The position numbers were made by a program, and so were the translations under genes. DNA of 64,000 nucleotides from positions 1 through 64,000 of the forward strand of contig JAHEAV010000002.1 of the NCBI GenBank assembly GCA_024642565.1, given 5' to 3'. Position 1 is the stretch's first letter. Each line of letters opens with the position of its first letter. This document shows positions 9,512 to 64,000 of the stretch, in pieces. This DNA is from Erythrobacter sp. (GTDB lineage: Bacteria > Pseudomonadota > Alphaproteobacteria > Sphingomonadales > Sphingomonadaceae). The notes under the pieces are model-generated. The model saw only the letters and a list, made by a program, of their open reading frames with translations. It was not told the DNA's origin and did no database searches.

Positions 9512-10500
9512 TGGCCGTTCTCCATCCGTTTGTCTTCTTCCAGAGCCAGCGCTGCCGCCTCCCCCGCGATATGGACGAAGGCATCATGCAATCCCGCGCG
9601 CTCGATCGAGAGCGACTGGATGCCAGCCTCCCCTTCGATCAGGGCGCGCAGCAGCGGTTCGACCCCGCTTTCGGGCAGGGAGAACAGCCAGTAATCGCCT
9701 TCAGCCCTTGTATCGGCGGGTAGCGCATCGCGCCACCGACCACCGCGCGAGCGGGTTTCAAGGCGAACCTGCGCTGGAATACGGTCCCGCGCGGTGTCGA
9801 CTGATCCGGCATAAGGCACTTTGCCCCCGGCGATAATGGCGACGCCTTCACACAGCCGTTCGGCATGGGCGATTACATGGGTTGAGAAGATTACCGTGGT
9901 GCCTTCGGCGGCAAGATCGCGGATCATCTGCTCCAACTTGCCCTGATTGATCGCATCAAGACCGGAAAAGGGTTCGTCCAGTACCACCAGCCTTGGTTTG
10001 TGGACCAATGTGCCGAGCAATTGCACAGTCTGCGCCATACCCTTGGATAATTGCCGTATCTGGCGGTCGGCTGCGTAGCCGAGGCCATGCTTTTCCAGCA
10101 ATTCGCGCCCACGCCGCTTGCCTTCGGCCAGCGCAAGCCCGCGCAACGCGCCAAGAAATCCGATCGCCTCGTCGCATTTCATCGAAGGGTAGAGCCCGCG
10201 CTCTTCGGGAAGATAGCCGATCAGCCGCGCGATATCGTGGGGCCGTTCGTTACCGAACACCCGCCGCACGCCTTCATCCGGGTCGATAATCCCCAGTAGC
10301 ATCCGCAATGTGGTGGTCTTTCCGGCACCATTCGGGCCAAGAATTCCGTAGATCGCGCCTTCCGGGACTGACAGATCGACACCATCGACCGCCAGCGTTC
10401 CTTCAAACCGCTTGACCAGCCCGCGCGCCTCGATTGCCAAGACCCGTGAATCCGGCAAATCATTGCTCAACCGGGCTTGTTCGCTTAGCGGCTTGTCCAT
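9508..10500 (-). CDS. ABC transporter ATP-binding protein (NatA-like)
   Basis: It is the ATPase for the adjacent permease. The Walker A motif GPNGAGKT is at 55-62, the signature LSKGMAQ is mid-protein, and Walker B is VVLDEPFSGLD, followed by an H-loop THVIAHAE. The C-terminal extension of about 80 residues is typical of the DRA/NatA subfamily. The gene starts 44 bp from the divergent queG start, so both promoters must lie in or near that short gap. Confidence 0.92.
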   Translation of the reverse strand: MDKPLSEQARLSNDLPDSRVLAIEARGLVKRFEGTLAVDGVDLSVPEGAIYGILGPNGAGKTTTLRMLLGIIDPDEGVRRVFGNERPHDIARLIGYLPEERGLYPSMKCDEAIGFLGALRGLALAEGKRRGRELLEKHGLGYAADRQIRQLSKGMAQTVQLLGTLVHKPRLVVLDEPFSGLDAINQGKLEQMIRDLAAEGTTVIFSTHVIAHAERLCEGVAIIAGGKVPYAGSVDTARDRIPAQVRLETRSRGGRWRDALPADTRAEGDYWLFSLPESGVEPLLRALIEGEAGIQSLSIERAGLHDAFVHIAGEAAALALEEDKRMENGQ

Positions 10501-54474: not shown

Positions 54475-55622
54475 GCGGCATCATCCCGGTTGCTGTGTCT
54501 TGCGCGCAGATCATGATAGGCGGCGGCCCAGCGATCCGCGACCACATCTGCCGAAAATGGGCCGGCGGCAAGACCCGATGCCGCCTGCGACATTGCCAGC
54601 CACTGCGGCTGGGGCATGGTCAGAAACGCGCGCAGGCCGGTGGCAAGGGCAACCGGACTGTGGCCAGATCTGATTGCGGCACCAGCGGCGAATCCTTCGG
54701 GCAAGTTGCTGTTTTCGGTCATCAAGGTTGGGGTGCCTTCAGCCCATGCCTCCAGCACCACGATGGGCTGGCCTTCGCTGAATGACGGCAGGACAAGCAT
54801 CCGCGCTTCGCGCAGCAATGCGGATTTATCCTCGCCATAAACGGCGCCGACGAATTCGATGGAGCCGGGCGCCTGTGCCAGCCTTTCTTTCAACTGGGCC
54901 ACATGGGCGGGCTCCCCCCATCCGGCAATGCATAGCCGCGCGCCGGTGGCCTCCACCAGATTGCCCAGCTCAGCCCAGGCTTCAATCAGGGAGCCGATAT
55001 TCTTCTTGGGGTGAATTCGCCCGAGATAGAGGACACGGGGTGCGGCAATCCTGCTGCGGGACGGTGCGGCTGTTGGCCCCGGATTGGGGATCACCAGAGT
55101 ATCCGTTCTGCCGGTTTCACGCGCGATGTCCGCCGCTTCGCAATCGGTCAAGGCGTGCAGTGCCGTGGCGGCCCGCCAGCTGGATCGTTCATAGCCTATC
55201 CGCGCGATTGCTTTCTGCGCTCTCCCTCGCGCGGTAATCCAGCGGTCGAGCATGCCGTGCGGACTGATGCAATAGGGCCTGCCGGTTCGGCGGGCCCAGA
55301 CGGCGGCGGCGCGGGACGGGTACATCCAGATGCCGTGAAGATGGAGCAGATCCAGATCGGCTGCGAGCAGGCGTTCGACCAAACCGGGCGCATAGCCGAA
55401 CCGGCCCGGCCCGCTCACCGGTATGTGATGCATTTGCGCGGCCCCGAACCGGGCACGATCTTCGGCCGAATGTTCGTCTGCCAGTGACAGGACAACCGGT
55501 TCACCCCGAAGGTGCCGGATCATTGCGGCCTGCTGTGCCACCGCTTCGAACACGCCGCCGCCCAGGCGTGATGCCGACGCCGTGAGCAGGCCGATCCGCA
55601 AGCCGCACAGATCGCCGTTCAT
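54471..55622 (-). CDS. Glycosyltransferase family 4
   Basis: The 383-residue GT-B enzyme has N-terminal GLLTASASRLGGGVFEAV, HGIWMYPSRAAAVWA, and the family 4 donor-site region: YLGRIHPKKNIGSLIEAW, LPSFSEGQPIVVLEAWAEG (EX7E motif). It would transfer one sugar of the repeat unit in the cytoplasm. It is flanked by 4-bp overlaps with the acyltransferase and with the polymerase-like gene. Confidence 0.9.
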   Translation of the reverse strand: MNGDLCGLRIGLLTASASRLGGGVFEAVAQQAAMIRHLRGEPVVLSLADEHSAEDRARFGAAQMHHIPVSGPGRFGYAPGLVERLLAADLDLLHLHGIWMYPSRAAAVWARRTGRPYCISPHGMLDRWITARGRAQKAIARIGYERSSWRAATALHALTDCEAADIARETGRTDTLVIPNPGPTAAPSRSRIAAPRVLYLGRIHPKKNIGSLIEAWAELGNLVEATGARLCIAGWGEPAHVAQLKERLAQAPGSIEFVGAVYGEDKSALLREARMLVLPSFSEGQPIVVLEAWAEGTPTLMTENSNLPEGFAAGAAIRSGHSPVALATGLRAFLTMPQPQWLAMSQAASGLAAGPFSADVVADRWAAAYHDLRARHSNRDDAA

Positions 55623-57127
55623 TTGACCCGGGTCCCGGCTGATGACCGGAACCGATAGGCACGCGGCAGCTTGGCTTGTGCTGCACTCTGGCTTTCTGCC
55701 TTGGCCGGTTTAGGTGCCAAATCCCCGCGCGCACGGGCGGCGCGACCGGGCAATTGGGATGCTGTCCGGTCATCGGGACCCACCGGGCCATGGTGCGGAT
55801 CATCCCTTTTCGGGCCAGCGGTGCGTGCCGGGACGATCCCGAACAGGCGGGCGATCAGGTAGAGTGTCACCAGTGGAAAGGCCAGAAACAGCAGGAAACG
55901 CAGCATTGTCACCAGGACCCCGTCGCGAAAGAACAGGATCGAAAGCGGCAGGATCACCAGATAGGATATAAGCCGCAGGCCTTGTGCCCGATTGCGCGCG
56001 AAGGCTTCGTAAACCCAGCCCCACAGCGCGCCGAAAAGCGCACACCACAGGGCAACACCAGCAAATCCAAGACTATACCAACCTTCTCCCGGCAGCGATC
56101 GGGTCATGCCAATCGGGTAACCATAGTCCATCAAATTGAACAGTTTGATCGGTTCACCCACCGGCTTGCCCGGCCACAACACGCGGGGCACTGGCTCAGT
56201 AAAGACCTGCAGATTGTCCAGGAAGTAACCATAGGTACCCGTGCGCGCAGGGATGGTGTGGGTCAGATATTCGACATATTCAAGATTGCCGGTGTCCATG
56301 CCTTCGAGGAAGCGGGGATCATCGCCCGAATTCCACGCATCGACCTGACTTTCCACAAACAGCCCGCGGATCGCGTGGCCGCGGTCGTTACCCACTGCCG
56401 TAAACACCCCGGCAAGAACGATGAAGGCCAGAACCATCCGGACATCGGGCCATTTGCGGCGCCGTTCGTAAAGCCAGATCAGCCCCAACGCCACAGCAGC
56501 GAGAATGAAGGGGCCGCGCGTTCCCGTGCCGCCGCCCAATATGACGAACGCAGCCAGCGGGAGAAAGGAATACCAGCGAAACCGCATCAGCCAGGCGAAT
56601 ATTACCGCGATCGGGCCGAGCATCAGCCGCGATTCGTAGAAATAGCCGTTTGATTGCGTGTTGATGGAAATGCCCGTCTGATGGTCCATCACCATTTGGC
56701 CCATTCCCGAAATGTCGGCCGCCCATGATGTCAGCATGGAATAAATTGCGACTGGCGCCAACACCAGTGCCATCAGGGCAAACGGAACGATCAGGCGGTT
56801 GCGCAACGCCTCGTCGCCCGGCGTCCGGGTGAAGGTAATGGGGGTGCGCGCCACATAGAGGTTGGCGATCCCGAATGCGACCAGCCCGATCATTGTAACC
56901 AGCAGGGCATCGGTCTTTTCAGACAGGCTCGGGGTGAAGAGATAGGCTTTGTAGATCAGATTATAGCCGCGATAATAGACCAGCGGCGGGCGGATCACGA
57001 ACAGCAGAAAATGGAATGTGAGATAGAAGGCGAAAGGGTGGAATACAGAGGCCGCCGGCTTACGGACAAAGACGAAAACCATCGCGGCCCACAGCAGGAA
57101 ATTGGCGAGCATGATAAATTCGTACAT
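55619..57127 (-). CDS. Oligosaccharide repeat-unit polymerase (Wzy-like)
   Basis: The 502-residue protein has about eleven hydrophobic helices, with large loops containing GGGTGTRGPFILAAVALG, YLTHTIPARTGTYGYFLDN and PRVLWPGKPVGEP, seen in O-antigen polymerase-type proteins (WzyE/EpsG class). The C-terminal 80 residues are Pro/Ala/Arg-rich and polar. It is a second polymerase candidate next to the ligase-family protein at 48421. The division of labour between them is unknown. Confidence 0.8.
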   Translation of the reverse strand: MYEFIMLANFLLWAAMVFVFVRKPAASVFHPFAFYLTFHFLLFVIRPPLVYYRGYNLIYKAYLFTPSLSEKTDALLVTMIGLVAFGIANLYVARTPITFTRTPGDEALRNRLIVPFALMALVLAPVAIYSMLTSWAADISGMGQMVMDHQTGISINTQSNGYFYESRLMLGPIAVIFAWLMRFRWYSFLPLAAFVILGGGTGTRGPFILAAVALGLIWLYERRRKWPDVRMVLAFIVLAGVFTAVGNDRGHAIRGLFVESQVDAWNSGDDPRFLEGMDTGNLEYVEYLTHTIPARTGTYGYFLDNLQVFTEPVPRVLWPGKPVGEPIKLFNLMDYGYPIGMTRSLPGEGWYSLGFAGVALWCALFGALWGWVYEAFARNRAQGLRLISYLVILPLSILFFRDGVLVTMLRFLLFLAFPLVTLYLIARLFGIVPARTAGPKRDDPHHGPVGPDDRTASQLPGRAARARGDLAPKPAKAESQSAAQAKLPRAYRFRSSAGTRVK

Positions 57128-59842: not shown

Positions 59843-61972
59843 TCAGACTGCGGGTTGTACACTGGCCTTGAAGGCGATGTTTGCCGCACCTTGCGGCGAT
59901 GCGCCGTCAAGATTTTTCAGCCAGAAACGCACTTCGTCGGTCCCGGCACGCACGGCACTGACGGCATACCCTGCCAGTGCTGCGATGGCGGATATGCGCG
60001 CCTGATGCCATGGCCGCGCCCCGATGAGGGCGATGGCAAATGGACCCGTCTCGGCTCCCAGCGCAGTTGCCGGAATGGCGAGAGTGGCCGTCACCGAACG
60101 CGGCGCTGGCGCTTCTGCCACCCGCCAGCGGTTATGGAACTTGTCAGCCCGCAGCCGGACCCGGTCACGAAAGCCAAGCAGTGCGAACCCGCCAACATCG
60201 AGCACGGCGTTGGGGGAACCGGTATCGCGATGTTCGATGGTTATCAGGGCGCCATCGTTGAACTGGTTGACATTGGCGGGCAGGGTCATCGCCACCAGGC
60301 CGCTCGCACCGCCAAGCCCTGCGCGGAGCCAGCCGCAGCCAACATCCGGCGCCGGAGTGGTAAGGGCATTGAAATACAGCGGTCCACCCTGGTCGGTCAG
60401 TTCCATACCGCGGTCGGTCAGGGCGACATAAAAGTCTGGCAAAGGCCCGCCCTGGATCACGCCGATCTTCCTGAATTGCCCCGAGGCATGAACGAAATTG
60501 TTCGGCCCCAGCGATCCTTGCTGGGACAGAATATTGGCGATCCCGCGCCCGTTTGTCCGGGCATCGGCGCTGGCCATGCCGCGCAGGCGGATATTCACAT
60601 TTTCGATCGACCGGGCAGCCGTACCGGTAAAGGGCGCGAACCGTATCGCGGTCAGGTCGGCGCGTTTATCGCAGATGGCGACCACATCCAGATCGACATC
60701 GCGGATCACCTGCAGGGCATGGACCGAAACCACCGCCAATTGGGTGTCGATCAGGGTCAACTTGCCGGAAACATAGGCGCCGACATAAAAATCGCCGCAA
60801 TCCTGCAGGGTTGCCTCGAGGTAAAGCATCGGCAAGGAGCCGTCATCGCGGCGCGGTGCCGACCAATAAGTGCCGCCCGTAATGCCGCCCGATTTTGCCC
60901 GGACGAACGTGGCGTTGATTATCCGGCTGCGTGCTGCCCCGCCCCATCCTTCAATCGTGAAGGCGCAGTTTTCGGCATAGAGTCCGTCGATTTCGAAAAT
61001 CTCCGGTCCGTTTGGATTGATGGCCTGGCCATTGCTGTGTTTCAGCACCAGATTGCGGCCTATAAAGCCGCCTTTGCCCTGGCCGGAACTGTAGATGCAT
61101 TCGCCAAGAAAACCGATGATATCGAGATTTTCGGCGCGCACTATGCCGACCTGCTTGTCTTGCTGGCAATAGATCCCCTTGTTGGACGTATCCCAGCAAT
61201 TGACCCGGGCCGGATCGCGGCTGGGCGCCAGCGCGGGCCAGGCCTGGTTCTGCACCCCTACGGCATCGGAAAACAGGATGAGATTGCGGATGTTTACCAT
61301 CGCCAGATCATCGGCGCTTTGCTGCGGAAAGCCGACACCAACCGTACCGGTGATCTTGATGCCGTGGCCCCGCCAGATCACATCATTGCCGTAATTGACC
61401 GTATTTAGCACCTGGTAATCGTCAAGCAGGCTACCGCCGCTCGGCCCTTTGCAATGCAACCGGGAACGGAGCGGATGGCTGCTTTCGAGTATCAACCGGC
61501 CGCTCACCACCATGAAGCATCCGCTGTGATCGGTATTCTCGCTATATTCGGCGGTGCGCAGCGGTGCCCATAATTCATATGTGCGCTGGATGAAACGCAC
61601 CCCGTTGAGCCCGGCTGCCAGCGCATAGTCGATCGCCGCCTGGATATAGGGCTGCTGGTTGACCCCCGGCGCATAGGGCGGGCAACCGAGTTGTTCGGGC
61701 GTGATAAAGCCATCCTGATCGCCCAGCAGCCGGAAATACCGCCCACCGGATGCGGCAAAGGTCGCATCCGGATGCGCCGAATGCAGTGCGGCTGTTGCGG
61801 CATCGTCGCTGACATAGGTGGCGGCCCCGGTACCAGCGGAATCATGCCCGCTACTGTCGACCCTCACGATGCCTTCGGGCAGCTGTGCTGCGGCCAGATC
61901 GTGGAATTGGAGGGCGCGCTGCGCACTGGCCTGCAAGGCAAGTGCCCGGGCCGTGAAATCGGGCGCGTTCAT
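59843..61972 (-). CDS. Phage-tailspike-like right-handed beta-helix protein (possible EPS lyase/depolymerase)
   Basis: The 709-residue protein lacks a signal peptide. The N-terminus contains GGRYFRLLGDQDGFITPEQLG and then NQQPYIQAAIDYALAAG, the layout of phage tailspikes and pectate-lyase-superfamily depolymerases (head-binding region, then ITPE/FG motif, then beta-helix). The centre is a string of short beta-strand repeats with Asn/Gly turns (NLVLKHSNGQAINPNGPEIFEIDGLYAENC). A C-terminal domain of about 120 residues may bind sugar or trimerise. It overlaps the upstream gene by 4 bp. In an EPS locus it may cut or modify the polymer. How it would leave the cell is unclear. Confidence 0.7.
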   Translation of the reverse strand: MNAPDFTARALALQASAQRALQFHDLAAAQLPEGIVRVDSSGHDSAGTGAATYVSDDAATAALHSAHPDATFAASGGRYFRLLGDQDGFITPEQLGCPPYAPGVNQQPYIQAAIDYALAAGLNGVRFIQRTYELWAPLRTAEYSENTDHSGCFMVVSGRLILESSHPLRSRLHCKGPSGGSLLDDYQVLNTVNYGNDVIWRGHGIKITGTVGVGFPQQSADDLAMVNIRNLILFSDAVGVQNQAWPALAPSRDPARVNCWDTSNKGIYCQQDKQVGIVRAENLDIIGFLGECIYSSGQGKGGFIGRNLVLKHSNGQAINPNGPEIFEIDGLYAENCAFTIEGWGGAARSRIINATFVRAKSGGITGGTYWSAPRRDDGSLPMLYLEATLQDCGDFYVGAYVSGKLTLIDTQLAVVSVHALQVIRDVDLDVVAICDKRADLTAIRFAPFTGTAARSIENVNIRLRGMASADARTNGRGIANILSQQGSLGPNNFVHASGQFRKIGVIQGGPLPDFYVALTDRGMELTDQGGPLYFNALTTPAPDVGCGWLRAGLGGASGLVAMTLPANVNQFNDGALITIEHRDTGSPNAVLDVGGFALLGFRDRVRLRADKFHNRWRVAEAPAPRSVTATLAIPATALGAETGPFAIALIGARPWHQARISAIAALAGYAVSAVRAGTDEVRFWLKNLDGASPQGAANIAFKASVQPAV

Positions 61973-62400
61973 TGGGACACCCGGTAGTTAAGTGTGCCGC
62001 TGGCGAGCTCAATATCGAGATAGAAACGCGCGGATTTTTCGGATTCCTGCCAGACGGCTTCGTTGACATTGGCAGTAAAGCTGGCCCAGCGCATGCCGCC
62101 AGCGGTCAGACCTTGCCGGGTCGCTCCGCCGTCCACCGAACGGACCAGCGATACGCGGCCGGCCCAGTCACCCGACAGTTGCAGATGGATCGCTGTCCCT
62201 GTTTGCGCAGAATAAGGGCCAGCAAGGCCGGTTTGCGATGTTGTTCCGCTTAGCGGCAAAGGCGCGATATCCGGTTTGGCCGAAACAGGTAGCGGTGTAT
62301 CGGCGGTTACAAGCACGAGATCGCCGGCCTGGTCGGCAAAGCCGATGGCGACCGACGTCGCATAGCTGGCCGGGGATTCAATAGGGGATTTTTTGGGCAT
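61969..62400 (-). CDS. Small phage-tail-type structural protein coupled to the beta-helix gene
   Basis: The 143-residue protein has LPLSGTTSQTGLAGPYSAQTG, LQLSGDWAGRVSLVRSVDGGATR and ASFTANVNEAVWQESE, then YLDIELASGTLNYRVSQ. I recall this organisation from short beta-rich proteins in sphingomonad prophages and phage-like tail regions. The start at 62400 follows GGAGG with 5-nt spacing. Its stop overlaps the beta-helix start, so the two are translated together, which suggests a complex or adaptor role. No signal peptide. Confidence 0.55.
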   Translation of the reverse strand: MPKKSPIESPASYATSVAIGFADQAGDLVLVTADTPLPVSAKPDIAPLPLSGTTSQTGLAGPYSAQTGTAIHLQLSGDWAGRVSLVRSVDGGATRQGLTAGGMRWASFTANVNEAVWQESEKSARFYLDIELASGTLNYRVSQ

Positions 62401-62442
62401 TGGGGCCTCCATCAGGAAAAGACCCGTGACCAGCTATAGAGC

Positions 62443-62467: not shown

Positions 62468-63229
62468 TTACAGAGCTTTGCTGTGCCCAGGTGGCTGCAG
62501 ACCCCGTTCCGCGACGATCTTTCGAACCTGATCGAGATCCTTGGGCGTGTCGACCGACAAGGCTTCGCTTTCTTCGACCAAGATCATCGCCAGACGGACG
62601 CCATGTTCAATGAAGCGCAATTCATTGATATCCTCGACCACTTCATTGATGGCGCGCGGAGTGGCCGCGAAAAATTCAAGCGCTGCCTTGTTGTAAGCCA
62701 GCACCCCGACATGTTTGTGATAGGTGAAATCGAGACTGCCCTTGGGATAGGGAATTGGCGCCCGCGACATGAACTGGGCGCTGCCATCGGCTGCAAACGC
62801 AACTTTGATGTTGGTCGGGTCCATTACCTGCGCGGGTGATGACAGGGGCGCTGCGATATTGGCAACGAACAGACCGTCTGCCGGGATGCTTGCCGGAATG
62901 ATCTTTTCGACCTGGCGGTGGTCGATCAGCGGTTCATCCCCATTGATACAAATGAAGAGGTCGGCGTCCAGTTGCTGCGCAACTTCGTTGACCCTTTCGG
63001 TACTGGTCAGGTGATCCGCCGATGTCATCAGGTAGTCCATTCCCCCCGCTTCGCAGACAGCCGCGATCCTCGGGTCATCGGTCGCAACATAGACCGCGTC
63101 GATCCGGTCAGACCGCTTGATGCTGGCATAAACCCAGGCGATCATCGGCGCCCCGGCCAGATCGGCCAGCGGCTTGCCTGCGAACCGGCTCGATCCATAG
63201 CGGGCGGGGATCACGGCAATTATCTTCAT
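62468..63229 (-). CDS. kdsB: CMP-sugar cytidylyltransferase of the KdsB family
   Basis: The 253-residue protein has the KdsB N-terminus IIAVIPARYGSSRFAGKPL, the substrate loop HLTSTERVNEV, INGDEPLI and VGVLAYNKAALEFF. KdsB activates Kdo with CTP for lipopolysaccharide. Here it follows a NeuB-type synthase by 13 bp, so the real substrate may be another ulosonic acid of the EPS; the symbol gives the family only. The start at 63229 begins the canonical motif; longer reading overlaps the neighbour. Confidence 0.85.
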   Translation of the reverse strand: MKIIAVIPARYGSSRFAGKPLADLAGAPMIAWVYASIKRSDRIDAVYVATDDPRIAAVCEAGGMDYLMTSADHLTSTERVNEVAQQLDADLFICINGDEPLIDHRQVEKIIPASIPADGLFVANIAAPLSSPAQVMDPTNIKVAFAADGSAQFMSRAPIPYPKGSLDFTYHKHVGVLAYNKAALEFFAATPRAINEVVEDINELRFIEHGVRLAMILVEESEALSVDTPKDLDQVRKIVAERGLQPPGHSKAL

Positions 63230-63242
63230 CGGGCTGCGCCTT

Positions 63243-64000
63243 TCATTGCCCGCTGCCGCGCCGGTATTTGTGGTGTTCGCTCGGCCGGACGGATTTTTCT
63301 TCCTCGCCCATGACCGTTTCCGCCTCGCGCAGCTTGCGGACATAGTCCTTGAAGTCCGTTGTGGTCAGGTCAAGCGCCACTGCATCGAAATGGGCCCAAT
63401 CGGTATCGCCCAGTTTCACATGTTTTTCGATCATGCGCGCGCCTGCCGCCACGGCCAGCGCAGAACCGAACCAGCCGTGATCATGACTGGAATAGCCGGG
63501 CACGATCCGCGGGTCCTGTTTCGCCAGCCAGGCATAGTGGCGCACAACGGCGACATTGCAGTCCTCCGCCGGGGTCGGATAGGCGGAATTGCATTGCAGA
63601 AGATGCAATTTCGGGCTGCGTTTGAAGGTATCGAGCACCCAGTTCTCAAAGCGTTTGTCCGTCATTCCGGTGCTGAGGACGATGGGGCGATCACAGGTCC
63701 GGGCAACCAGACCGAGAAATTCTGTGTGCTCGGAAATGGTCGATGGCAGTTTGATCGCCATCGAGCCGACATCCATCAGCAGGCGGTAGGATGGTTCGTC
63801 GAGCGCCGAAGCAAACCATTTGATGCGAAGGGACGTACATAGCGCATCGAGAAAGGCAAAATCGTCAGGGTCCAGTTCCAGTTGCTGGCGATAGTCGCGA
63901 AACGTTGTGCCGAATGGCGATTTGTAGGGCGCCGCAAGTTGCTGCGGTGAATAGAACGTCTCGATGTCCCGCTTCTGGACCTTCACATAATCGGCGCCTG
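63243..64000 (-). CDS. NeuB-family sialic/nonulosonic acid synthase (partial, runs off the window)
   Basis: The 252 visible residues begin inside the TIM-barrel (GADYVKVQKRDIETFY) and contain KWFASALDEPSYRLL, AIKLPSTISEH, IVLSTGMTD, LLQCNSAYPTP, GYSSHDHGW and MIEKHVKL. These are the PEP- and metal-binding motifs of NeuB/SpsE enzymes, which condense PEP with a hexosamine-type sugar to make a nine-carbon ulosonic acid. The frame stays open to the window edge and its N-terminus is missing. There is no C-terminal antifreeze-like (SAF) domain: the protein ends about 30 residues after the barrel. Confidence 0.88.
   Translation of the reverse strand, partial: GADYVKVQKRDIETFYSPQQLAAPYKSPFGTTFRDYRQQLELDPDDFAFLDALCTSLRIKWFASALDEPSYRLLMDVGSMAIKLPSTISEHTEFLGLVARTCDRPIVLSTGMTDKRFENWVLDTFKRSPKLHLLQCNSAYPTPAEDCNVAVVRHYAWLAKQDPRIVPGYSSHDHGWFGSALAVAAGARMIEKHVKLGDTDWAHFDAVALDLTTTDFKDYVRKLREAETVMGEEEKSVRPSEHHKYRRGSGQ

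Follow-up and report, generated by a model that had tools for sequence, protein, structure and literature searches.

The window analysed here, a stretch of 64,000 nucleotides at the start of contig JAHEAV010000002.1 from Erythrobacter sp., carries in an exopolysaccharide (EPS) locus two overlapping genes, one for a phage-tailspike-like enzyme and one, just upstream, for a small protein that we call the adaptor. This pair is a modular cassette with exchangeable enzymes, found in many genera of the family and not a one-off. It is marked by recurrent pairing, a shared N-terminal tag, modularity, low ratios of non-synonymous to synonymous substitutions (dN/dS) and covariation of the enzyme with the polymerase and flippase of the locus; the two proteins are predicted to fold as a beta-helix and a beta-sandwich. 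Our preferred reading, to which we give a probability of about 0.6, is a phage-derived, host-owned two-gene cassette with which the cell edits its own EPS outside the cytoplasm. The elements of the pair are:

59843..61972, minus strand: predicted tailspike-like right-handed beta-helix enzyme, 709 residues (open reading frame list, AlphaFold2 model, fold matches), made up of a tag helix (residues 3-17), a neck, the beta-helix (~85-525) and a C-terminal beta-rich region
61969..62400, minus strand: adaptor, 143 residues (family alignment, model, fold search, profile matches), made up of an N-terminal motif of ~40 residues ending in PLPV and a C-terminal beta-sandwich
61922..61972, minus strand: putative N-terminal docking tag of the enzyme, MNAPDFTARALALQASA (partner comparison; helix in the model)
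62406..62410, minus strand: probable ribosome-binding sequence GGAGG of the adaptor (read from the sequence)

The pair is real. A 4-base ATGA overlap joins the adaptor stop to the enzyme start, the coding scores of the two genes are both positive (143 and 14), and their GC content (0.61 and 0.60) matches that of the window (0.60). For the adaptor, the start at 62400 was preferred over the ATG at 62412 on account of the GGAGG just upstream and the fit to the family alignment. The pair goes beyond chance because it recurs in many genomes with a dN/dS of 0.07-0.17 in the three closest of 14 gene pairs compared (adaptor 0.08, 0.15 and 0.16, enzyme 0.10, 0.07 and 0.17 in L017/L018, L097/L110 and L125/L126), most of the others having a dS above 1. 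Here and below L stands for a fetched locus and G for a genome; L029, which repeats the window's own adaptor, was excluded from counts.

An earlier note on this DNA had proposed a tailspike-type enzyme and a phage-like adaptor, and both the reading frames and the folds agree with it. The AlphaFold2 model of the enzyme (predicted local distance difference test, pLDDT, 83.8) is a right-handed parallel beta-helix, in which residues ~85-525 match tailspikes and polysaccharide lyases or epimerases at Z scores of 23-31 overall: AlgE4 epimerase (31.1), the lyase RbmB (9ozl; 28.4), CBA120 TSP2 (27.0) and the Sf6 tailspike (26.8). WceF (6TGF) is among the Foldseek matches (E 1e-4), and viral tailspike-type proteins in BFVD match the model too. 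Since identities in these fold matches are just 7-17%, the chemistry may be that of a hydrolase, a lyase or an epimerase. Candidate active-site acids, also raised in the earlier note, are conserved or mostly kept: across 26 aligned relatives D409 is invariant, together with R139, Y132 and W200, while E341 is found in 25, E291 in 24 (D in 2), D435 in 23 and D261 in 21 of 25. Enzyme relatives occur in 9 of 148 related genomes, the window's own counted; that of Novosphingobium sp. Leaf2 (L016) reaches 46% in the best segment. A single-sequence search with the enzyme gave no credible match in Pfam, PHROGs, PDB, phages, viral contigs or plasmids.

The adaptor was modelled (mean pLDDT 81.6) as a beta-sandwich over residues 54-147, confident from ~51 and poor in the first 50 residues. 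Its best fold matches are the prophage proteins XepA (C-terminal domain, Z 10.7, 97 residues aligned, root-mean-square deviation 3.2) and YomS (Z 10.6, 102 aligned, 4.0), at identities of 8% and 6%; phage baseplate (9.1) and cement (8.5) proteins come next, with unrelated proteins at ~7-8, and the weak matches include agarase CBM6 modules and a porphyran-binding carbohydrate-binding module (CBM). The best Foldseek E was 0.013, none below 0.001. At the level of sequence no Pfam, PHROG or PDB family was significant, phrog_3758 (virion structural protein) being matched by 1 of 10 members at E 0.11 only, and a single-sequence search gave no credible match in Pfam, PHROGs or phages. A ten-member adaptor profile found 20 of 148 related genomes at E <= 0.01, 13 of them strong. 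With 16 members and E <= 1e-6 it reached 69 of 397 genomes of the family and 29 of 96 genera; among these 69 are members of a second adaptor type as well as some matches that are partial or prophage-like, and 49 are strong (E below 1e-38). Of 385 genomes drawn across the class the profile matched 1, the window's own, so that the adaptor looks restricted to one family, presumably the Sphingomonadaceae.

The modularity of the cassette, which the earlier note had missed along with its spread over many genera, the shared tag and the few Sec-type signals, emerged from loci fetched around these adaptors and enzymes. The loci were mostly 20 kb, and their genes were called and clustered. Of 75 gene-called loci, 12 had no called adaptor: a six-frame search found none in the enzyme-only loci L021, L022, L023 and L025 (L023 lying in a region rich in EPS genes) and recovered one in L094, L099, L101, L112, L131, L133, L136 and L138, of which only L094, L101 and L112 joined the tag count. 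Behind window-type adaptors lie members of the window's enzyme family (22 loci), GDSL/SGNH hydrolases and proteins that match nothing in Pfam. GDSL/SGNH was matched by 8 of 20 scanned proteins (19 partners and one prophage gene, L139), 6 of them above cut-off; L123 and L124, two of the eight, follow adaptors of the second type. This second type is 112-122 residues long with a different C-terminal half, and its enzymes are without the tag (one loose match in 11). The 4-base overlap is present in 39 of 45 called pairs, and likewise in L120 after start correction. Genome G050 holds three paralogues of the enzyme: L024 is paired, L023 tagged, and L025 untagged with a Tat-like (twin-arginine translocation) signal. 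Single loci depart from the common layout. At L136 (9008-10135, minus strand, G082) the adaptor N-terminal motif continues straight into a GDS-motif protein, which we read by eye as an SGNH hydrolase; such a natural fusion would support the link of the two parts. At L103 (9799-10251, G287) no enzyme gene was found behind the adaptor. Short partners of 164-207 residues keep the tag at L095 (9268-9762), L105 (10229-10852) and L122 (9274-9804), and no EPS clusters were counted close to the first two.

What the partners of window-type adaptors share is their beginning, with a consensus near M-S-x-x-D-x-x-A-R-G-L-A-x-x-A, while the remainder differs between enzyme kinds. The pattern D-x-x-[AS]-R-[GA], chosen like the others after the partner sequences were seen, occurs in the first 22 residues of 39 of 48 partners and of 2 of 1062 other genes (>150 residues, same loci; in L085 and L128 residues were counted after the signal). 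The narrower AR[GA][LM] within the first 20 residues gives 31 of 48 against 0 of 1062. A loose form covers 45 of 48 partners, yet also 151 of 1062 other genes (first 45 residues), and another loose form (first 22 residues) 102 of 1062; the loose forms thus prove little, and we put the weight on D-x-x-[AS]-R-[GA]. Among the nine partners without this pattern, seven are of an ALPALGLA kind and L112 has ATLGLA (variants judged by eye), and L024 has diverged; once their starts are corrected, L093 and L120 have the tag too. In the enzyme model the tag is a helix (residues 3-17) of moderate confidence. One genome, G175, holds the same enzyme family in two settings: at L119 behind a window-type adaptor, with an enzyme beginning MSLDTVARGLAVRARTDA, and at L134 in a phage-like region, with an enzyme beginning MDAAAYGAAKALIS and preceded by a Sec-like-signal protein that has the adaptor N-terminal motif and a different C-terminal half. 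In this one case, tag and adaptor change together and the enzyme stays.

The surroundings of the pair are those of an EPS locus, as had been claimed. On one strand follow NeuB, cytidylyltransferase, adaptor and enzyme, with group-1 glycosyltransferases and a Wzy-like protein on the far side, and the adaptor and cytidylyltransferase likely form one transcription unit:

62468..63229, minus strand: sugar cytidylyltransferase (CTP_transf_3, Pfam), 67 bp upstream of the adaptor on the same strand
63243..64000, minus strand: NeuB-family synthase, extending beyond the window; 513 residues complete in L029
58584..59831, plus strand: group-1 glycosyltransferase oriented towards the cassette; many loci have a relative of this gene next to the cassette
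55619..57127, minus strand: Wzy-like EPS polymerase (Wzy_C 16.1 bits, under the Pfam cut-off of 31.7)

The claim that no prophage flanks the pair also stood: by eye, and without a PHROGs scan of these neighbours, no phage gene was seen in the window's gene calls from 44 kb on (44-64 kb) or in the next 18 kb (L029). In related genomes the pair is again found beside EPS genes. A group-1 glycosyltransferase cluster lies within 3-4 genes of 33 of 46 window-type adaptors, against a genome background of 11-21 group-1 glycosyltransferase genes each in 12 genomes, or ~0.1 per 20 kb. Two or more EPS clusters are near 31 of 46 window-type adaptors, 7 of 11 of the second type and 0 of 5 of the remaining, prophage-like or stray ones; the cluster list was hand-picked from sequence starts, and these counts are probably too low because unclustered genes were left out. 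Some relatives, on the other hand, sit in prophage-like regions: L021 and L022 (G041), where enzyme relatives stand among phage-like genes, L134, and L139, where a beta-sandwich relative (E 2e-9) precedes an 847-residue gene beside genes resembling phage packaging genes. At L026 (G066) no EPS genes were seen near the pair, which sits between genes that look like holA and lptC/lptA.

Enzyme identity tracks that of Wzy over the 12 loci that have both the window-type enzyme and a Wzy (Spearman 0.73, p 0.001), and still does without two near-duplicates (0.62, p 0.002, n=10); for the flippase the values are 0.57 and 0.42. Adaptor identity tracks neither (rho -0.09 for Wzy and -0.10 for the flippase), and a partial Mantel test of enzyme and Wzy given the adaptor yields 0.73 (0 of 2000 permutations). 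With Pearson and the near-duplicates kept, adaptor-Wzy rises to 0.73 and enzyme-Wzy to 0.92, the former probably driven by two near-identical pairs. Small as the sample is, no other result speaks as strongly for an enzyme adapted to the local polymer as this covariation with Wzy. It agrees with action on the strain's own EPS, and the host-owned depolymerase of the earlier note stays our best reading.

Under this reading, the enzyme would bind and probably cleave or otherwise modify the EPS made by the surrounding genes, as WceF does with stewartan. The adaptor would be a beta-sandwich protein, probably an oligomer, on which the first ~15 residues of the enzyme may dock as a tag; the adaptor would be generic and the enzyme swapped to match the polymer. 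A few relatives bear Sec- or Tat-like signals, which suggests action outside the cytoplasm: the enzyme of L085 (its gene truncated where the contig ends) and both proteins of L128 have a Sec-like one, and the adaptor-less L025 a Tat-like one. Members without a signal could be released by lysis, borne by particles, or exported by a route tied to the tag and adaptor. In phage-like regions, the adaptor N-terminal motif stands right behind a Sec-type signal at L134 (9856-10335), L137 (8819-10141) and L143 (9071-10186), and such a signal is unusual for tail proteins.

Several points weigh against the preferred reading. By a crude hydropathy measure neither protein of the window's pair has a signal peptide, in line with the earlier note, and none was missed upstream, because just five codons are open before the enzyme start (a frame of 714) and seven before the ATG at 62412. 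Signal-like by hydropathy are just 4 of 62 adaptors and 4 of 60 partners (L098 doubtful), and an export route is missing. No EPS cluster lies near 8 of 46 window-type adaptors, the adaptor's top folds are prophage and virion proteins, and a few partners lack the length for such an enzyme. In G391, which has no GTA-type (gene transfer agent) capsid, the adaptor (L118, ~9834-10262) is broken by a stop codon; the enzyme frame there stays intact despite this. The Mantel tests cover 12 loci and use no species tree, and of six gene families tried three had enough loci. Lastly, enzyme identity shows no correlation with that of the HPG glycosyltransferase in these loci (rho -0.18); this argues against the locus simply being inherited as a whole, and also against the enzyme being matched to this transferase.

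A more specific proposal, which we regard as tentative, is that adaptor and tag form a phage-derived, cargo-swapping device for delivery or attachment that replaces the signal peptide. A tagged EPS-active enzyme, be it a beta-helix hydrolase or an esterase, would dock on the generic adaptor and so reach the surface, the EPS or a particle by a novel route.

The main rival places the pair on particles, and we hold it for rather unlikely: an ectopic spike, with the adaptor as base and the enzyme as fibre or depolymerase, carried by GTA or prophage particles and recognising or clearing the EPS of kin, in the manner of the RcGTA head spikes and of TspA. We took a GTA spike as the main rival because the head-spike genes of RcGTA lie beside capsule genes. 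Rcc01079/Rcc01080, also named GhsA/GhsB, resemble the window's pair as two genes beside capsule or EPS genes, a likeness in layout only. In the parts of the literature available to us, the RcGTA head-spike genes adjoin and are co-regulated with the capsule genes (PMC10218006), and the spike binds polysaccharide and has a pentameric base of jellyroll fold, in which a short N-terminal peptide of the fibre is held (PMC7296036); likewise XepA and YomS, the adaptor's nearest folds, are pentamers, described as lytic-cassette proteins of Bacillus prophages with no enzyme partner mentioned in the part consulted (PMC6834076). The absence of a signal peptide in most members and the adaptor-like and enzyme relatives in prophage-like regions (L134, L139, L021 and L022) fit particles as well. 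The RcGTA fibre, though, has 325 residues, belongs to GTA particles and is not described as a beta-helix enzyme in the excerpts at hand (PMC7296036, PMC10218006). No RcGTA chain is among the five PDB sequences matched by adaptor profile A1 at E <= 10, and Rcc01079 is not among the 50 adaptor fold matches listed, which excludes nothing. Sec-like signals on some members also misfit an assembly in the cytoplasm.

This rival, and with it the GTA-fibre option of the earlier note, was lowered by co-occurrence. In contrast with the RcGTA head spike, the cassette does not track GTA-type capsids: these are present in 33 of 49 strong cassette genomes and in 19 of 31 cassette-free ones (Fisher p 0.63), the latter being 31 of 60 randomly drawn genomes, cut by hand (G043-G086, G394-G450) and no longer random. 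As GTA-type we accepted two capsids of 56-59% identity with an internal stop (G203, G216) and excluded those of 40-42% (G149, G313). The pair is uninterrupted without a GTA-type capsid in G066 and G451 (two contigs each) and in G082 (one contig). A dependence of the cassette on gene transfer agents is thus unsupported. The profile markers need care: Phage-tail_3 was not found in G000, G002, G050 and G066, nor the HK97 capsid in G000, G002, G066 and G082. G050 has a GTA cluster that looks intact by eye (L149), so Phage-tail_3 misses some, and in G000 and G002 the terminase runs off the contig end, so that the missing markers there are no proof of absence. In the window's assembly no HK97 capsid or Phage-tail_3 was found, with the terminase cut by the contig end and the loss therefore unproven. 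GTA_TIM (PF13547) was dropped as a marker, with 0 of 148 over cut-off though Phage-tail_3 and capsid were common; TerL_ATPase (PF03354) matched 2 of 15 only, and PF03237 matched 13 of 13 but prophage terminases too.

Three observations on these clusters stand apart. Two congeneric assemblies break off within the GTA terminase, at almost the same codon (L144 10110, the end of G000:C23, and L145 1, the start of G002:C48). At L147 (9451-13234, G082) the GTA cluster jumps from a 145-residue terminase piece to g13-g15-like genes. G066 holds, by eye, a podovirus-like prophage, and its terminases at L146 (G066:C1), in the podovirus-like region, and at G066:C2:36875-37549 have identical scores, which suggests that the prophage is held twice.

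In another reading, which we think improbable, the adaptor serves its partner by binding carbohydrate or by oligomerising, and the pair works inside the cell with no export, for example by trimming or deacetylating misplaced polymer or lipid-linked repeats. Such a role would suit the absence of signal peptides in the window's pair and most others, and the agarase CBM6 and porphyran-binding CBM among the weak adaptor fold matches; it sits badly with the export-like signals of L085, L128 and L025, and Wzx/Wzy-type loci make their polymer outside the inner membrane, which counts against it. That the pair is a prophage remnant which travels with the EPS island and has no present function is very improbable, for the phage-like folds, the stop-interrupted adaptor of G391 and the short partners of L095, L105 and L122 stand against low dN/dS, a conserved overlap and tag, an adaptor in 29 of 96 genera and an enzyme that covaries with the polymerase.

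The host-owned cassette that we prefer has a known counterpart, in the parts of the source available, in WceF of Pantoea stewartii, a host-encoded tailspike-like beta-helix enzyme among EPS glycosyltransferase genes that acts on stewartan, the strain's own EPS; its single chain includes a Tat signal and a head domain like that of P22, and no separate adaptor is mentioned there (PMC7949094). The window's enzyme is similarly a predicted beta-helix encoded in a host EPS locus, with no flanking prophage seen; unlike WceF as there described, its cassette has a separate adaptor, a short tag, enzyme swapping and no signal. We know of no adaptor or tag for the two other host enzymes to be compared, RbmB and SpnR. 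Among host-encoded lyases of this kind are, as partial sources have it, RbmB of Vibrio cholerae, acting on EPS (PMC11637428), and SpnR, a sphingan lyase in a sphingan cluster, likened here by description and not by sequence (PMC5399355); for the sphingan lyases SpsR/GelR our literature search found no paper. TspA, the trimeric beta-helix tailspike of RcGTA, degrades R. capsulatus biofilm, is encoded outside the virion cluster and is reported, in the portion seen of a preprint, as missing from GTA-encoding Alphaproteobacteria outside Rhodobacterales; unlike in the window's pair, its N-terminal beta-sandwich is on the same chain (PMC13420450).

Host tailspike-like enzymes in EPS loci were thus already known from WceF; what is new is the adaptor-tag modularity and its spread, and in the literature as partly available to us no description was found of such modularity with exchangeable enzymes across genera. 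If our reading is true, these loci supply ready-made pairs of an enzyme and the polysaccharide that it probably acts on, of use in EPS chemistry and biofilm control. It raises the testable question of the path by which signal-less, phage-type enzymes reach the outside, and would link host EPS editing, prophage tails and GTA spikes.

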